From: Rhizobiales bacterium NRL2
GTDB lineage: Bacteria; Pseudomonadota; Alphaproteobacteria; Minwuiales; Minwuiaceae
Direction of reading: 5' to 3'
Length of the DNA stretch: 64,000 nt
Assembly (NCBI GenBank): GCA_001664005.1
Contig: CP016093.1
Location: 434,001 to 498,000, forward strand
This document shows positions 12,608 to 19,136 of this stretch, piece after piece. The translations under genes were made by a program, and so were the position numbers. Within the stretch, counting starts at the first letter, position 1, and each line of letters opens with the position of its first letter. The notes beneath the pieces were generated by a model that was not told where the DNA came from, did not search any database, and was given only the letters and a program-made list of their open reading frames with translations.

Positions 12608-14299
12608 CTATTTGGAGGCCGGAAAGGGCGGCGGGCCGGCCTGCCGCGCCATCGCTAGGTCGCGCCATTCCGGCGGCGGCAGCGGTCTGGAGAAGAAATA
12701 TCCCTGCAGGCGGTCGCAGCCATTGGCGACCAGCCAGTCGGCGATCTCCTGCGTCTCGACGCCCTCGGCGACGATGTCCATGCCCAGGTCCTTGCCGATC
12801 TGGATGGTGCGCCGGACCAGAATGGCGTCGCGTTCCGAGCTCATGACGTCGCGGACGAAGGACTGGTCGATCTTCAGCGTGTCGGCCGGAATCCTCTTGA
12901 GATAGACGAGCGACGAATAGCCGGTCCCGAAGTCGTCGATGGCGATGCGGACGCCGGTTTCGCGCACGCGTTCCAGGACGGGGACGAGGCGTTCCATATC
13001 CTCGATGATCGCGGTTTCGGTGATCTCGAGTTCGAGCAGGGCGAGGTCGGCGGGATCGTCGCCGAAGGCCTCGCGCAGCATGTCCGGGAAGCGCGGATCG
13101 GTGACGTCGCTGCCGGAGACGTTGACCGAGAACCGCAGCGCCGAGTGCGGCGCAAATCCGCGGACGTCGAGGACATGGCGCTTCGCGGTCTCGAAGCCGA
13201 AGCGGGTGAGATCGAAGATCAGCCGCGATTTTTCCGCCAGCGGGATGAACCGGGCGGGCGAAATGAAGCCGTTCTCCGGATGCGCCCAGCGGACAAGCAG
13301 TTCGGCGCCCCAGAGTGAACCGTCCACGGCGAACTTCGGCTGCGCATGGAAGACCAGCAGCCGCCCGTCGATGGCGCCGCGCAGGTCCGACAGCAGGCGC
13401 AGGTTGTCGCGCTGTGCGCCGTCCTGCCCGGAGTCGAAAAGATGCACCGTTCTGTTCGGGGCCTGACCGGCGCGGGCGATGGCGGCGAAGGACGCCCGCA
13501 GCAGTTCCTCCGGCTCATCTCCGTGGTCCGGATAGGTCGCGATACCGATCTCGCAGTCCACCAGCGCCGGCAGGCCGCCCATGTCCAGCGGATCACGCAG
13601 CGCCGAGCGCAGATCCTGGCCGACCGCCACCGCGTCCGCTTCCGGCGTGTTGATCAGGAAGCAGAGGAACCGCGCCTGACCGCCGCGCGCCAGGAAGCCG
13701 TCGTCGGGAAGGGCCCCGGCGATGCGCCGCGCGCAGGACCGCATCAGCGTCTCGTAGGCGTCGACCCCGAACGAGGAATGGATGTCGTCGCCATTTGTCA
13801 GGTTGAGGTGGATGACGGCGTGCTGGCCGCTGGAGCCGCCCTCGGCCTCCAGGGTCTGGGCGATATGACGCCGCAGCGGTCCGGCGAGCGGCAGTTCGGT
13901 GCTCGCATCGTAGTTGGCCAGGCGGAAGCGCTCTTCCCGGCCCCGCAGGACGATGCGGTTGAGCAGGCCGATCACCACGCCGATGGCGCAGAGGTAGACG
14001 CCGCGGAACAGCCAGTTCGAGGCCGGCTGCATCTCGCCCGTCGCGACGTCGAGCGGCATCAGCGGCCCCATGAGGATCATGCCCACGAGACCGGCGACGA
14101 AGCCGCCGAGCTCGTCGTAACGGAAGGCGGCCAGCAGGATCGGAAAGTAGATGACGTGCAGGTGGACGTATTTCGTGCCGCCGTCAGCGTGCACCAGCAG
14201 CCAGGCCCCGGCAAAGGCCAGGATAATCAGGGGTATCGCAACCCAGTGACGCCGGAACAGCCGGATCGCTTCGAACGCGGACGCAACGCGGTAACTCAT
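12608..14299 (-). CDS. membrane-bound cyclic-di-GMP phosphodiesterase: degenerate GGDEF plus EAL
   Basis: A 563-residue protein. Residues 1-117 hold about four membrane helices with a short charged loop. Residues 125-290 have the GGDEF fold, but the active motif reads ARGGQARF (204-211), so synthase activity is not expected. From about 300 an EAL domain follows: the signature is ELL (333-335) within GAELLVRW, with IDDFGTGYSSL, LKIDQSFV and EGVET all present, consistent with active hydrolysis of c-di-GMP. The degenerate GGDEF may bind GTP as an activator, as in known hybrids. It is transcribed away from its neighbours, and the ATG at 14299 is 144 bases from the AEC gene. Confidence 0.9.
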   Translation of the reverse strand: MSYRVASAFEAIRLFRRHWVAIPLIILAFAGAWLLVHADGGTKYVHLHVIYFPILLAAFRYDELGGFVAGLVGMILMGPLMPLDVATGEMQPASNWLFRGVYLCAIGVVIGLLNRIVLRGREERFRLANYDASTELPLAGPLRRHIAQTLEAEGGSSGQHAVIHLNLTNGDDIHSSFGVDAYETLMRSCARRIAGALPDDGFLARGGQARFLCFLINTPEADAVAVGQDLRSALRDPLDMGGLPALVDCEIGIATYPDHGDEPEELLRASFAAIARAGQAPNRTVHLFDSGQDGAQRDNLRLLSDLRGAIDGRLLVFHAQPKFAVDGSLWGAELLVRWAHPENGFISPARFIPLAEKSRLIFDLTRFGFETAKRHVLDVRGFAPHSALRFSVNVSGSDVTDPRFPDMLREAFGDDPADLALLELEITETAIIEDMERLVPVLERVRETGVRIAIDDFGTGYSSLVYLKRIPADTLKIDQSFVRDVMSSERDAILVRRTIQIGKDLGMDIVAEGVETQEIADWLVANGCDRLQGYFFSRPLPPPEWRDLAMARQAGPPPFPASK

Positions 14300-14443: not shown

Positions 14444-15379
14444 TCAACTGGCGGCGATCAGCAGCCCCGAGACGGAGAGCACGGCAAGGCCCGTGGTCAG
14501 CAGCACGATGGTCGAGGCGCGGGCGACCGCCGCATCGTACTGAGCCGCCAGCACGTAGATGTTCGCGCCGGTGGGCAGGCTGGCGATGACCACCACCAGA
14601 AGCGCCAGATCGGGGGGCAGATCGAGCACCAGGAAGGCCAGCACCGCCGCCAGCGCCGGATGCACGGCGAGCTTGCAGACCGTGGCGAAGCCCACCTCCG
14701 CGCGGCCTTCGGCAATGGGTCGTCCGTAGAGGCTGCCGCCCAGCGCGAACAGGGCGCAGGGGCCGGCCGCGCCGCCCAGCAGGTCGCCGAAGCGTTCCAC
14801 CGGTCCCGGCAGCGGCAGGGCCAGAAGGCCCCAGACCACGCCCAGCACCATGCCCAGCATGAAGGGATTGCGCCCGAAGCCCTTCAGCACGTTCAGCGCA
14901 AGCCGCGCGGGGCGGAAGCTGGGCGCCGAAGCGGCCTCCAGGAAGCCCATGATCAGGGTGATCAGGATCAGGTTGTCGGCGAGCAGGATCAGTCCCGCCG
15001 GCGCGCCCGCCGCAGGCCCCAGCGCACCGATCACCAGCGGCACGCCCAGATAGGCGATGTTGGAGAAGGAGGCGCCGCCGGCGACCACGGTGCGTTCGGC
15101 CAGGCTCCGCCCCGGAAAGACGGCGCGGCCCAGCAGCAGGGTGGCGAAGAACAGGATCACCGAAGCCCCGGAATAGGCCGCTACCAGCCGCCAGTCCGAC
15201 AGCGCGCCCATCGGCGCGCGGGCGAAGATGAAGAACAGCAGCACCGGCAGGGCGAAGTAGTAGACGAAGCGGTTGAGGCCCGCGAGGCCTTCGGTGCTGA
15301 GCACCCGGAAGCGCATCGCCGCGAAGCCGAGCAGGACCAGCGCGAACAGTGGGACGACCGATTCCAGAACCGCGGTCAC
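14444..15379 (-). CDS. AEC-family transporter (auxin efflux carrier-like)
   Basis: A 311-residue integral membrane protein with about ten helices and the split-helix feature of the AEC/BART fold (ASFSNIAYLGVPLV near 105 and SLPTGANIYVLA near 275). Bacterial members export or import small organic anions such as malate. The start is GTG 15379, overlapping the upstream stop as GTGA. It is the last gene of a four-gene unit begun by the CyaC-like cyclase, so a substrate related to acyl-CoA or organic-acid metabolism is possible but unproven. Confidence 0.87.
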   Translation of the reverse strand: MTAVLESVVPLFALVLLGFAAMRFRVLSTEGLAGLNRFVYYFALPVLLFFIFARAPMGALSDWRLVAAYSGASVILFFATLLLGRAVFPGRSLAERTVVAGGASFSNIAYLGVPLVIGALGPAAGAPAGLILLADNLILITLIMGFLEAASAPSFRPARLALNVLKGFGRNPFMLGMVLGVVWGLLALPLPGPVERFGDLLGGAAGPCALFALGGSLYGRPIAEGRAEVGFATVCKLAVHPALAAVLAFLVLDLPPDLALLVVVIASLPTGANIYVLAAQYDAAVARASTIVLLTTGLAVLSVSGLLIAAS

Positions 15380-16248
15380 GGGGCCAGCAGGGCCCGGAAT
15401 CCCTCCAACGCGGCGGCATCGGGCGGGCTGCGCCGGCCGCTGGCGCGGTCGAAGAAGCTCATGACGTACTCGACCCGGGCCACGATCTCCCCGTCGGTCT
15501 CGTCGGCGATGAGCTGGCCGAAGCGGACCGAGGTCTCGCCGAAGCCGAGCGTCGCCACCCGTACGGAAAGCAGGTCGCCCATGCGCGCCGGCCGGCCGTG
15601 GCGCACCTGGACGGCGGTCATGGCGCCGGCTGCGCCGCGCTGGCCCATCTCCCGCCGGTGGCCGCCCAGCGGGATCTGCACCGCCCAGAGCGCGCGGGTG
15701 ACGATGTCGAAGATCGCCCGGGGCGACTGCAGTTCGTGCTCGTCGCAGTCGCGCACCTCCACGGTGCCGCGCCAGGCGAGCAGCGCGTGCGCCGGCAGGC
15801 GCGCCGGCGTCCACGGCTCCGGCATCGGCCTCAGCCGCGCGTCGCCGCCGAGCGCCAGCAGGTCGTGGCCCGCTCCGTCGGAATGGACGCGGCGCTCGAC
15901 ATCGTGGATCGCCCAGCTCGTCTCGAAGCGCATGACCGGCGCGTCGTCATGCGGACGCAGCATGCGGCCCGCCAGCGTCGTTTCCCCGTCATTGTCCAGA
16001 CCGCCCGCGCCCTCGATGAAGGCGGCGTTGCCCGGCGCCAGCTCCCGGCGGAAGTCGATGCGCTCCTTCAGCGGGCGGACGGCCAGTCCATTCGCGCGCA
16101 GTTCGATCGGGTCGTGGCCCAGTTCGAAGGCGTGCGCCCGGCGCGCCTCCTCGATGGCGTTGGCGTAGTGCTGGATGTTGACGTGGCCGCCCAGGCCGCG
16201 CTGCCACTGGTTGAACACCCCGCGCCAGTAGACCGCATCCCCGCTCAC
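15376..16248 (-). CDS. double hot-dog thioesterase-fold protein
   Basis: A 290-residue protein with two consecutive hot-dog domains. The first (about 1-140) has GLGGHVNIQHYANAIEEAR, the helix motif of 4HBT thioesterases, but lacks the Asp that normally precedes GH. The second (about 145-290) has CDEHELQSP, keeping the Asp but losing the GHxN part. A single composite active site would be possible. Family members cleave acyl-CoA or acyl-ACP thioesters. GTG start at 16248 overlaps the upstream stop, and its own stop overlaps the AEC start, both as GTGA. Confidence 0.82.
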   Translation of the reverse strand: MSGDAVYWRGVFNQWQRGLGGHVNIQHYANAIEEARRAHAFELGHDPIELRANGLAVRPLKERIDFRRELAPGNAAFIEGAGGLDNDGETTLAGRMLRPHDDAPVMRFETSWAIHDVERRVHSDGAGHDLLALGGDARLRPMPEPWTPARLPAHALLAWRGTVEVRDCDEHELQSPRAIFDIVTRALWAVQIPLGGHRREMGQRGAAGAMTAVQVRHGRPARMGDLLSVRVATLGFGETSVRFGQLIADETDGEIVARVEYVMSFFDRASGRRSPPDAAALEGFRALLAP

Positions 16249-16682
16249 AGGCCGAACACCTCTTTCGGGGCGACGAAGGTCCGGGCGGCGGCGAGAATGT
16301 CGTCGGGCATGGTGGTCCGCTTGCGCGCCTCCAGATCGAAGGGGAAGCCCAGCGAATGCGCGTTCAGCGCCAGCACGCCATCGGTCAGCCGGGTCATGCG
16401 GTGGGCGGTGTGGACCTGCCGCTCCGTCACTTCCAGGAAGCCGGTCTCGACCATGTACAGATCGCCGGGCCGCAGCTCGCGGCGGAACTTCAGCTCCATG
16501 GAGACGGCGGCGAGGCCGAGCCGGCGCTGCTTCACCACCGCGGGGCCCAGCCCGATCAGCGACAGCATGTGCAGGAAGGCGTCGCTCAGCGCGGCGTCGT
16601 AGAACTGCACGTTCATGTGGCCGAAATGGTCGCACTGTTCGGCGCGGACGACGCCGCGGAACGTCTCCGTCGGTCCGCTCAC
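16245..16682 (-). CDS. single hot-dog acyl-CoA thioesterase
   Basis: A 145-residue 4HBT-type protein with the complete catalytic helix motif CDHFGHMNVQFY at about 17-28, where the Asp is the usual general base. It probably hydrolyses a small acyl-CoA; betaine/carnitine-type thioesterases have a similar length and motif. GTG 16682 overlaps the cyclase stop and its stop overlaps the double hot-dog start, each by four bases. Translation therefore appears tied to that of the cyclase. Confidence 0.85.
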   Translation of the reverse strand: MSGPTETFRGVVRAEQCDHFGHMNVQFYDAALSDAFLHMLSLIGLGPAVVKQRRLGLAAVSMELKFRRELRPGDLYMVETGFLEVTERQVHTAHRMTRLTDGVLALNAHSLGFPFDLEARKRTTMPDDILAAARTFVAPKEVFGL

Positions 16683-18355
16683 GGTTTCGTCTCGCCCCCG
16701 CTCTCCGGCAGGTCCGTGGCCGAATCGAGGACGAAGGCGTCGACGGTGCGGTCGCGGCCGGGAATGGCGATCTGCCGCCGGGTCCGCCCGCTCATGTCCA
16801 GTCCTGCAGTCGCCGCGGTTTCGGCCGACAGCACCAGCTGGCTGCCGAATTCCTTGTTGGCCGCCTCCAGCCGGCTGGCGGTGTTCACCGCGTCGCCGAT
16901 GGCGGTCAGCGAGACCGTGTCGCGGTAGCCCATCTCGCCGACGATGACGTCGCCGACATGGACGCCGATGCCGATGCGCATGGGCTGGCCCAGATCGTCG
17001 GCCAGGGCCTGGTTCATGCGATCGAGCGCCACGGAGATGTCGCGCGCCGCCGCCAGCGCCCGCCGCGCCCCTTCCTCGGGTCCAGATTCGATGCCGAACA
17101 GCGCCATTACCCCGTCGCCGATGAACTTGTCGAGCCGGCCGCCATTGGCCTCGACCGCGCGGCCCATATAGCGGCAATACTGGTTGATGACAAAGACCAC
17201 GTCATAGGGCAGCCGGCCCTCGGCGAAGCGGGTGAAGTCGCGCAGGTCGGCGAACAGGATGGCGATGCGGCGCTCCGCGCCCTGAGCGTAGCCGTTGCGG
17301 CCATAGGCGTCGCGGACCTCCGCCGGCTCCGCCACCAGGGGGAGGACGCGCAGATCGGCCTCGGGCCGGAGCTGGCAGGCCAGCCGGACCCCTTCCGGCG
17401 CGCCGATCCGGCGCAGCACGCGGCGCTCGGTGTCCTCCGGCGGCGGCATCTCCTCCCAGCCCTCCAGCACCCGGACACGGCAGGTGGAGCAGCGCCCGCG
17501 GCCGCCGCAGACGCTGGCGTGGGCGATGCCGGCGCGGCGGCTGGCCTCCAGCACCGTGACGCCTGGCTCGACGATGGCGCGGCGGTTGTCGGGATAGCGG
17601 ATGGTGACCAGGTTGCGCCGCCGCTCCCACAGATAATGGGCGCCCCGTGCGGCGCCGAAAAAGGCGATGAAGGCGATCATGGCGGTCCACGTCGCATCGC
17701 GCGTCTCGTAGACCCAGGCAGCCGCCTCCGCCGGCAGGGCGGTGCGCTGCGTGTAGGCTTGCAGCCAGACCGGATCCTGAGCGCGCAGGCTCACTTCCTG
17801 ACCGCCGCTGACGAAGCCGGCGAGGCCGAGAACCAGCACCATCAGCGCGGCGGTGTAGAGCGCCGGGGCGCAGGGGCGGTAGCGTGGCTTCAGCCTGAGC
17901 CACATGTGGACGCCGAGACAGCCATGGATCCAGGCGATGATCGTCAGCGCCGCCTGCTTCAGGCCCTCGAAGGGGTCGAGCTGCCACAGTCCCATCAGCA
18001 CCCAGCTGTAGGTGTCCTCCAGGCCGTGCAGTTCGTGCAGGCCCCGGTTGGCGAGAATGTGGAGCACCAGCAGCGGCGGGATGGCCAGTGCGGTGACGTA
18101 CTGGATGATCTCGGATGTCGTGATGCCGCGCCAGGTCCGCCGGCGGTAGATCGAGGCGAGGCCGGTGGCGACATGGGCCACGGTCGCCGCCAGCAACACC
18201 GCCGTGCCGGCCCAGGAGCGCCAGACGAACAGGAATACCTCGCGCCCCCCGTCCATCGCCTGCAGCGAGACGATGCCCAGGGCGTGATTGACCAGATGCG
18301 TGGCCAGGAAGGCGAACAGCACCAGCCCCGAATAGATCCGCACCCGGTTGATCAT
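16679..18355 (-). CDS. cyaC: CyaC-like adenylate cyclase: diheme-type membrane anchor, 2Fe-2S ferredoxin domain, class III cyclase
   Basis: From ATG 18355 the protein is 558 residues. Residues 1-250 form about six membrane helices rich in His (H20, H24, H61, H99, H144, H150), like the diheme-b anchors of succinate:quinone reductase. Residues 250-345 carry a plant-type ferredoxin pattern C283-x5-C289-x2-C292-x34-C327. Residues 360-550 form a class III cyclase: metal Asp D370 and D414, purine-selecting K410 and D488, transition-state N491 and R495. Sinorhizobium meliloti CyaC has this plan and is controlled by quinone redox state; cAMP is the expected product. An in-frame extension to 18520 lacks a good start signal. 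It heads a four-gene overlapping operon. Confidence 0.88.
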   Translation of the reverse strand: MINRVRIYSGLVLFAFLATHLVNHALGIVSLQAMDGGREVFLFVWRSWAGTAVLLAATVAHVATGLASIYRRRTWRGITTSEIIQYVTALAIPPLLVLHILANRGLHELHGLEDTYSWVLMGLWQLDPFEGLKQAALTIIAWIHGCLGVHMWLRLKPRYRPCAPALYTAALMVLVLGLAGFVSGGQEVSLRAQDPVWLQAYTQRTALPAEAAAWVYETRDATWTAMIAFIAFFGAARGAHYLWERRRNLVTIRYPDNRRAIVEPGVTVLEASRRAGIAHASVCGGRGRCSTCRVRVLEGWEEMPPPEDTERRVLRRIGAPEGVRLACQLRPEADLRVLPLVAEPAEVRDAYGRNGYAQGAERRIAILFADLRDFTRFAEGRLPYDVVFVINQYCRYMGRAVEANGGRLDKFIGDGVMALFGIESGPEEGARRALAAARDISVALDRMNQALADDLGQPMRIGIGVHVGDVIVGEMGYRDTVSLTAIGDAVNTASRLEAANKEFGSQLVLSAETAATAGLDMSGRTRRQIAIPGRDRTVDAFVLDSATDLPESGGETKP

Positions 18356-18518: not shown

Positions 18519-19136
18519 ATGTCCGCTGATGGCGTGATCGAATATTTCTATGCGGCCCATTCGGCCTTTGCCTATCTGGGCTCGAGGCGGTTCATGGCGA
18601 TCGCGGCGAAGGCCGGGCGGCGGATCGTCCACCGGCCGGTGGACCTTCGACTGGTCGTGGCAGAAGCCGGCGCGACGCCGTTCCCGAAGCGCTCGAAGGC
18701 GCATGTCCAGTATTTCTTCGGCCGCGAGATCCGGCGCTGGTCGGAGGAGCGCGGTGCGCCGGTGCTGGGCCGGACACCCACCTTTCACCACCACGATATC
18801 GGGCTGCCCAACTGCTTCCTGATCGCCGGCATGGAGCAGGGGCTGGTGATCGACGAACTGGCGCACCGCCTGCTGGAAGCGCACTGGAAGGAGGACGCCG
18901 ATCTCGCCGACCGAGGCACGCTGCTGCGTCTCGGCCGGGAAGCGGGCGTCGATCCGCAACCGCTGCTGGAGGCCGCCGACAGCCCGGCCGTGCGCGAGAT
19001 CTATGACCGCTACAGCCGGGACGCGATCGAGCGCAGCATCTTCGGCTCGCCCACCTATTTCGTCGACGGCGACATGTTCTACGGCCAGGACCGCCTGGAG
19101 ATGGTCGAACGCGCGCTGGCGAAGCCCTACGCGTGA
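18519..19136 (+). CDS. DsbA-like 2-hydroxychromene-2-carboxylate isomerase family protein
   Basis: A 205-residue protein of the kappa-GST/HCCA-isomerase branch of the thioredoxin fold. The opening strand and loop IEYFYAAHSAFAYLG and the late cis-proline segment IFGSPTYFVDGDMFYGQDRL are typical. Ser/Ala rather than Cys occupy the active-site loop, which suits glutathione-dependent isomerase chemistry rather than disulfide exchange. Members act in naphthalene-type aromatic degradation, but no such genes are nearby. GGGGGAGGAG precedes ATG 18519. It is divergent from the cyclase; the 163-base gap has no striking motif. Confidence 0.85.
   Translation: MSADGVIEYFYAAHSAFAYLGSRRFMAIAAKAGRRIVHRPVDLRLVVAEAGATPFPKRSKAHVQYFFGREIRRWSEERGAPVLGRTPTFHHHDIGLPNCFLIAGMEQGLVIDELAHRLLEAHWKEDADLADRGTLLRLGREAGVDPQPLLEAADSPAVREIYDRYSRDAIERSIFGSPTYFVDGDMFYGQDRLEMVERALAKPYA

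Follow-up and report, generated by a model that had tools for sequence, protein, structure and literature searches.

The class III adenylate cyclase CyaC of Sinorhizobium meliloti (SMc01818) is described, in the excerpted text of PMC10463352, as carrying a six-helix anchor that binds two heme b groups in a di-heme manner like that of succinate dehydrogenase and fumarate reductase (SDH/FRD), together with a 2Fe-2S cluster, and the one cascade found described downstream of a CyaC-type cyclase is reported there too. In Shewanella, the excerpted text of PMC5479800 reports that cyclic di-GMP (c-di-GMP) falls when the hot-dog thioesterase YbgC is lost, with thioesterase activity being needed. Here we analysed a stretch of 64,000 nucleotides (the window) from Rhizobiales bacterium NRL2, the genome of which is a single contig of 4.70 Mb, and in which a cyclase of the CyaC type is followed by genes for a hot-dog protein (hd1), a double hot-dog protein (hd2) and an AEC-family permease. 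The cyclase itself is of an already known kind, and it is its four-gene arrangement that is local. We consider it likely, with a probability of roughly 0.7 from sequence comparisons, that the cyclase came to head an older and separately conserved hd1-hd2-AEC module (the trio) in one small branch of Minwuia, and by parsimony the four-gene unit is probably young. The four genes are as follows.

16679-18355, minus strand: CyaC-type class III adenylate cyclase, first gene of the unit (ATG start, 558 amino acids)
16245-16682, minus strand: hd1, hot-dog protein of the 4HBT_2 kind with the motif CDHFGHMN (GTG start, 145 amino acids)
15376-16248, minus strand: hd2, double hot-dog protein (GTG start, 290 amino acids)
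14444-15379, minus strand: AEC-family (Mem_trans) permease (GTG start, 311 amino acids)

The four genes with three GTGA overlaps that the initial annotation had proposed were confirmed, with all four open reading frames (ORFs) on the minus strand and the GTGA at the cyclase/hd1, hd1/hd2 and hd2/AEC junctions forming in each case a 4-base stop/start overlap. Overlaps of this type are common in bacterial operons and are by themselves unremarkable. Judged by the ratio of non-synonymous to synonymous substitution (dN/dS) against the sister genome G007, which was 0.14 for the cyclase, 0.05 for hd1, 0.26 for hd2 and 0.06 for AEC, all four genes look constrained.

The distribution of these genes was examined in a family sample of nine genomes, an identical set serving for family and order, in which the relatives include Minwuia, other Minwuiaceae, 'Kordiimonadales bacterium IMCC3096' and one Sneathiellales metagenome-assembled genome (MAG); the window genome is congeneric with Minwuia. 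The cyclase was present in all nine (in G006 as a contig-end fragment and in G008 in two pieces), and hd1, hd2 and AEC occurred together in eight (the window genome, G007, G001, G003, G004, G005, G006 and G008), though not in G002. Only the window genome and its sister G007 have the trio directly after the cyclase, hence the 'locked' operon of the initial annotation did not hold up; a lack of conservation of the neighbours in relatives was the refuting outcome named in that annotation. Six of the nine genomes carry the trio as a separate unit, away from the cyclase, in one case with a shortened AEC gene. The latter (G004, L097 9113-9454) has an in-frame internal deletion, possibly an assembly fault. 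Both trio junctions were ATGA overlaps in G003, G005, G006 and G008, as was the one junction read in G004; because the overlapping trio occurs apart from the cyclase, it is a unit independent of it. An SDR gene ends 39-40 bases ahead of hd1 in G003, G004, G005 and G008, and the window genome has its best relative of this gene (71%) roughly 59 kb away from the cyclase. In G001 the trio is preceded by acyl-CoA dehydrogenase and biotin carboxylase genes.

A cyclase tree of 47 rows, comprising the window, G007 and 45 of the 80 named loci considered below, placed the window and G007 cyclases as sister to four Minwuia cyclases (100/100). The tree nests these two within Minwuia, so the cyclase looks to have been vertically inherited while its neighbours changed, and its horizontal arrival in the window/G007 branch is not favoured. 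A PfkB-family gene precedes the cyclase in the Minwuia relatives, in G002, in G001 and in Sneathiella loci, and this order looks to be the older arrangement because it is common to G001, G002 and Sneathiella.

Such a change of neighbours might also be a neutral rearrangement, in which the cyclase was brought to lie upstream of an overlapping operon to which it is unrelated, with no connection between the two functions, and we give this explanation a little less than an even chance. It accords with the joined state being confined to two of the nine genomes, with surroundings at the window locus that are not common to the relatives, and with the occurrence of the cyclase in many surroundings; the retention in G007 of the joined order and its three overlaps, with all four genes constrained, speaks against it, as does a second hot-dog partner in the sister genomes (below), which would have to be a coincidence.

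Beyond the family, 112 of the 385 class genomes sampled had the anchor plus ferredoxin portion of the cyclase (E<=1e-20) and 10 had hd2 (E<=1e-12). From 140 confirmed relatives, 80 named cyclase loci were inspected, using rough gene calls (a caller based on GC by codon position, which missed the cyclase in L128 and L169); seven of the 80 had fewer than 500 bases past the assumed cyclase end. The neighbourhoods read, which covered 78 of these 80 loci, showed no relative of hd1, hd2 or AEC. Amongst the 78 loci with a called cyclase, the next gene lay on the opposite strand in 42 and on the same strand in 31, and in five the locus ended. Ten of the 27 same-strand next genes outside Minwuia were scanned and proved to be of mixed kinds. 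In L136, a carbon-nitrogen hydrolase gene overlaps the cyclase by 4 bases. In an Acetobacteraceae MAG (L130, 7665-8180), a gene with a cyclic-nucleotide-binding domain starts right after the cyclase, and its product is a candidate cyclic AMP (cAMP) receptor.

The initial annotation had envisaged a dedicated system, conserved in Alphaproteobacteria, that joins redox-controlled cAMP signalling to acyl-thioester turnover and organic-acid traffic. The tight four-gene unit in the window and G007 speaks for such a system, but the gap between 112 and 10 of the 385 genomes, the trio lying apart from the cyclase in six family genomes and its absence from the neighbourhoods read at 78 of the 80 named loci leave the proposal very improbable, and the neighbourhoods seen refute it as a general system. 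A general alphaproteobacterial operon of cyclase and trio was thus ruled out by the neighbourhoods in the family and in the named loci. No paper on the combination of a cyclase with hot-dog and AEC genes was found in the open-licence literature, among the matches listed.

A six-frame HMM search recovered a hot-dog gene in four of the 80 named loci (L106, L107, L112 and L119, from G004, G003, G008 and G005, respectively), all of them Minwuia, and in each the gene was not hd1 but a different 4HBT_2 gene, termed c21, which scores over the Pfam 4HBT_2 cut-off. In these four genomes the cyclase lies behind the PfkB-family gene and shares an ATGA overlap with c21, followed by rplU, rpmA and obgE. 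BLASTP gave no real match between c21 and hd1 (15 residues, E 0.8). The window genome and G007 also encode a c21 relative (55%), which stands ahead of rplU, rpmA and obgE without the cyclase, and a c21-like gene of G002 (41%) does not adjoin rplU in the stretch read. Seven Minwuia genomes were available, of which six were readable at this point, the G006 contig stopping inside the cyclase such that its next gene could not be read; each of the six has a four-base overlap between the end of the cyclase and a hot-dog gene, which is c21 in four genomes and hd1 in two. The window genome has 11 matches to PF13279, and with about 4,500 genes estimated, a random neighbour of this family would be expected in roughly 0.2% of cases, odds that were computed after the fact.

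That the cyclase adjoins two different hot-dog genes within one genus suggests a functional link. The coupling of cyclase and hot-dog protein proposed earlier did not stand as a conserved unit of cyclase, hd1, hd2 and AEC, and it stood in the narrower form of a hot-dog partner, with a different hot-dog gene overlapping the cyclase in the four other Minwuia. Taken further, the cyclase and hot-dog protein may be a functional pair in Minwuia: a thioesterase co-produced with the cyclase would tune a pool of acyl-thioester or free acid acting as an input to the cAMP circuit, a hot-dog gene having been recruited behind the cyclase twice, independently, and translationally coupled to it. The overlap in all six readable genomes, the want of a real BLASTP match between the two partners, the low chance of a random PF13279 neighbour and the precedent of Shewanella YbgC acting on c-di-GMP (in the excerpts of PMC5479800) lend themselves to this explanation. 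The evidence for it nevertheless comes from two junctions within a single genus, with after-the-fact odds; a hot-dog gene was seen in no named locus outside the four Minwuia, c21 does not need the cyclase, standing ahead of rplU without it in the window genome and G007, and the same-strand neighbours scanned elsewhere were mixed. We regard a functional pair as unlikely, at perhaps one chance in five; if true, the Minwuia pairing would point to a new role of acyl-thioester or free-acid level in a cAMP circuit.

The cyclase itself has three parts, coordinates being those of the window.

17621-18355, minus strand: six-helix membrane anchor, residues 1-245, with invariant H20, H61, H99 and H144
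17363-17578, minus strand: 2Fe-2S ferredoxin domain, residues 260-331 (Pfam Fer2, E 6.9e-11), with C283, C289, C292 and C327
16748-17272, minus strand: class III cyclase catalytic domain, residues 362-536 (Pfam Guanylate_cyc, E 9.1e-16)

The anchor model (pLDDT 95.9) has six long helices (residues 2-28, 48-71, 80-110, 128-153, 159-192 and 209-244), in agreement with the six-helix anchor first proposed. H20, H61, H99 and H144, each in a different long helix, were invariant in 50 of 50 aligned rows (the window and 49 relatives), and these four are the putative heme ligands. H24 was nearly invariant in the same alignment. H150 was rejected as a heme ligand because it is not invariant there. In structural comparison (VIA-align) the model matched Wolinella FrdC best, a diheme C subunit of fumarate reductase (Z 12.9, rmsd 4.2, 197 residues), a score to be read with the caution that helical bundles may reach a Z of about 13 without kinship. 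The top six rows were all chains of fumarate reductase (QFR) or SDH from three organisms (Wolinella, Desulfovibrio gigas and Chloroflexus; Z 11.2-12.9), and the next rows were of cytochrome b561 types (Z 6.2 and 5.8). These C subunits resemble the anchor model in fold but serve a dehydrogenase, whereas the anchor in the window carries ferredoxin and cyclase domains. In a profile search the anchor matched solved SdhC (E 0.01) and FrdC (E 0.21) chains weakly, with H20 and H61 placed on their histidines.

The ferredoxin cysteines are spaced C283-x5-C289-x2-C292-x34-C327, exactly the spacing given by the initial annotation, and were invariant in seven of seven rows. The same was true of D370, K410, D414, T484, N491 and R495 of the catalytic domain, which we take to be the metal Asp pair (D370/D414), the Lys/Thr substrate pair (K410/T484) and the Asn/Arg residues (N491/R495), hence the class III catalytic residues had also been correctly called intact. 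From sequence and structural model, the cyclase belongs to the CyaC kind: the four invariant anchor histidines, compared within the family rather than against S. meliloti CyaC, the diheme fumarate-reductase-like fold, the ferredoxin cysteines and the cyclase residues all uphold that assignment.

The domain plan is shared with S. meliloti CyaC as excerpted in PMC10463352, here with four invariant histidines, four cysteines and the QFR-like fold. The neighbours are different: according to those excerpts, S. meliloti cyaC lies with the TetR gene cycR and a LysR gene, whereas in the window the cyclase is flanked by the hot-dog/AEC trio and by a DSBA-fold gene that runs divergently. At two Rhizobium loci scanned, a RutR-like TetR gene (under NCBIfam cut-offs) adjoins the cyclase, which fits kinship with CyaC because cycR adjoins cyaC in the excerpted account (PMC10463352).

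Several points weigh against the view that a CyaC-type cyclase was joined to an older trio. The order of events rests on parsimony, and a joined state in two species leaves room for an older cyclase-trio order that was lost elsewhere. For the cyclase, the Z of 12.9 of its anchor lies near the level of about 13 that unrelated helical bundles can reach, and a Foldseek search with the anchor model returned no significant match (best E 1.1). Because unrelated bundles may score so highly, the weight of the QFR-like fold was put on the gap in Z, on the top six rows coming from one family and on the invariant histidines.

Amongst the trio, hd1 matched Pfam 4HBT_2 with an E of 2.8e-23 (83.1 bits against a cut-off of 25.5), and its motif CDHFGHMN contains the Asp plus GHxN. 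It is thereby like the YbgC-FadM-like 4HBT_2 thioesterases, which c21 resembles by its Pfam 4HBT_2 match, though hd1 and c21 both score far under the NCBIfam cut-offs of named hot-dog families. The permease matched Pfam Mem_trans (E 6.5e-37, 127.4 bits against a cut-off of 25.7) and fell under the TIGR00946 cut-off (89.6 against 246).

The match of hd2 to Pfam 4HBT_2 (E 1.2e-12) comprised two stretches, and its model (pLDDT 82.0) has a double hot-dog fold; Foldseek placed FatA first (E 2.7e-16) and VIA-align a Lactobacillus acyl thioesterase (Z 23.3), with Z of 21-23 over about 240 residues. A sequence search of hd2 against solved chains gave no significant match (best E 0.039). The fold is like that of FatA/FatB and other double hot-dogs, but identity is about 14%, and hd2 lacks the motif Asp in its N-half and GHxN in its C-half. 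In an alignment of seven Minwuia and four distant rows, not including the hd2 relatives from G001 and G100, the N-half Asp was lost in all seven Minwuia rows and kept in all four distant ones (ECDxMGHMN or ECDIMGHFN), whilst D169 of the C-half was invariant in 11 of 11. The C-half reads CDEHELQ, in which the Asp is kept and the Asn and His are not in place, so that hd2 does not have the full set of the FatA/FatB C-half, which we take to be Asp-x-Asn-x-His. Given the lost N-half Asp, hd2 may bind an acyl-thioester rather than cleave it.

In G001, G009, G106 and G377 the trio or hd2-like genes have genes for acyl-CoA dehydrogenase, biotin carboxylase, BKACE or enoyl-CoA hydratase nearby, and these support an acyl-thioester role for the trio; for G287 and G100, where the neighbours fell outside the scan, no acyl-CoA gene was identified alongside. 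In G377 (L231 7157-8548), 4HBT_2 matches fall in three stretches of a single ORF of 463 amino acids, and an AEC gene (39% to that of G003) comes next; ORF and AEC gene together represent the trio in fused form, and enoyl-CoA hydratase and TetR genes lie ahead of them.

Flanking the unit, the DSBA-fold gene (18519-19136, plus strand) is divergent from the cyclase across a 163-base gap, in which only 4 positions differ from G007. Simple patterns revealed no CRP- or FNR-like sites in these 163 bases upstream of the cyclase. Relatives of the DSBA-fold gene were found in six of seven genomes searched, in other surroundings and with no CyaC-type cyclase or trio called nearby, and no empty site could be named that would represent a shared insertion site. 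On the other side, a gene for a GGDEF-EAL protein (12608-14299, minus strand) lies 144 bases past AEC on the same strand in the window genome and G007; this neighbour could tie c-di-GMP to the four-gene unit, or be there by chance.

As reported for CyaC, the putative diheme b anchor of the window cyclase probably exchanges electrons with the quinone pool, the redox state of which would set the cyclase rate. The trio is not part of this sensor, because each occurs elsewhere without the other. To judge from fold, motif and the acyl-CoA gene neighbours of some relatives, the trio most likely handles an acyl-thioester, which hd1 would hydrolyse and hd2 would either hydrolyse or only bind, with the permease moving the freed acid. 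Judging by the overlaps, sensor and trio, once joined, would be transcribed together and their translation would be coupled. CyaC-type cyclases look widespread, and one that shares an operon with metabolic genes provides a candidate output open to testing; should the recurring hot-dog partner be functional, acyl-thioester metabolism would be tied to redox-controlled cAMP.

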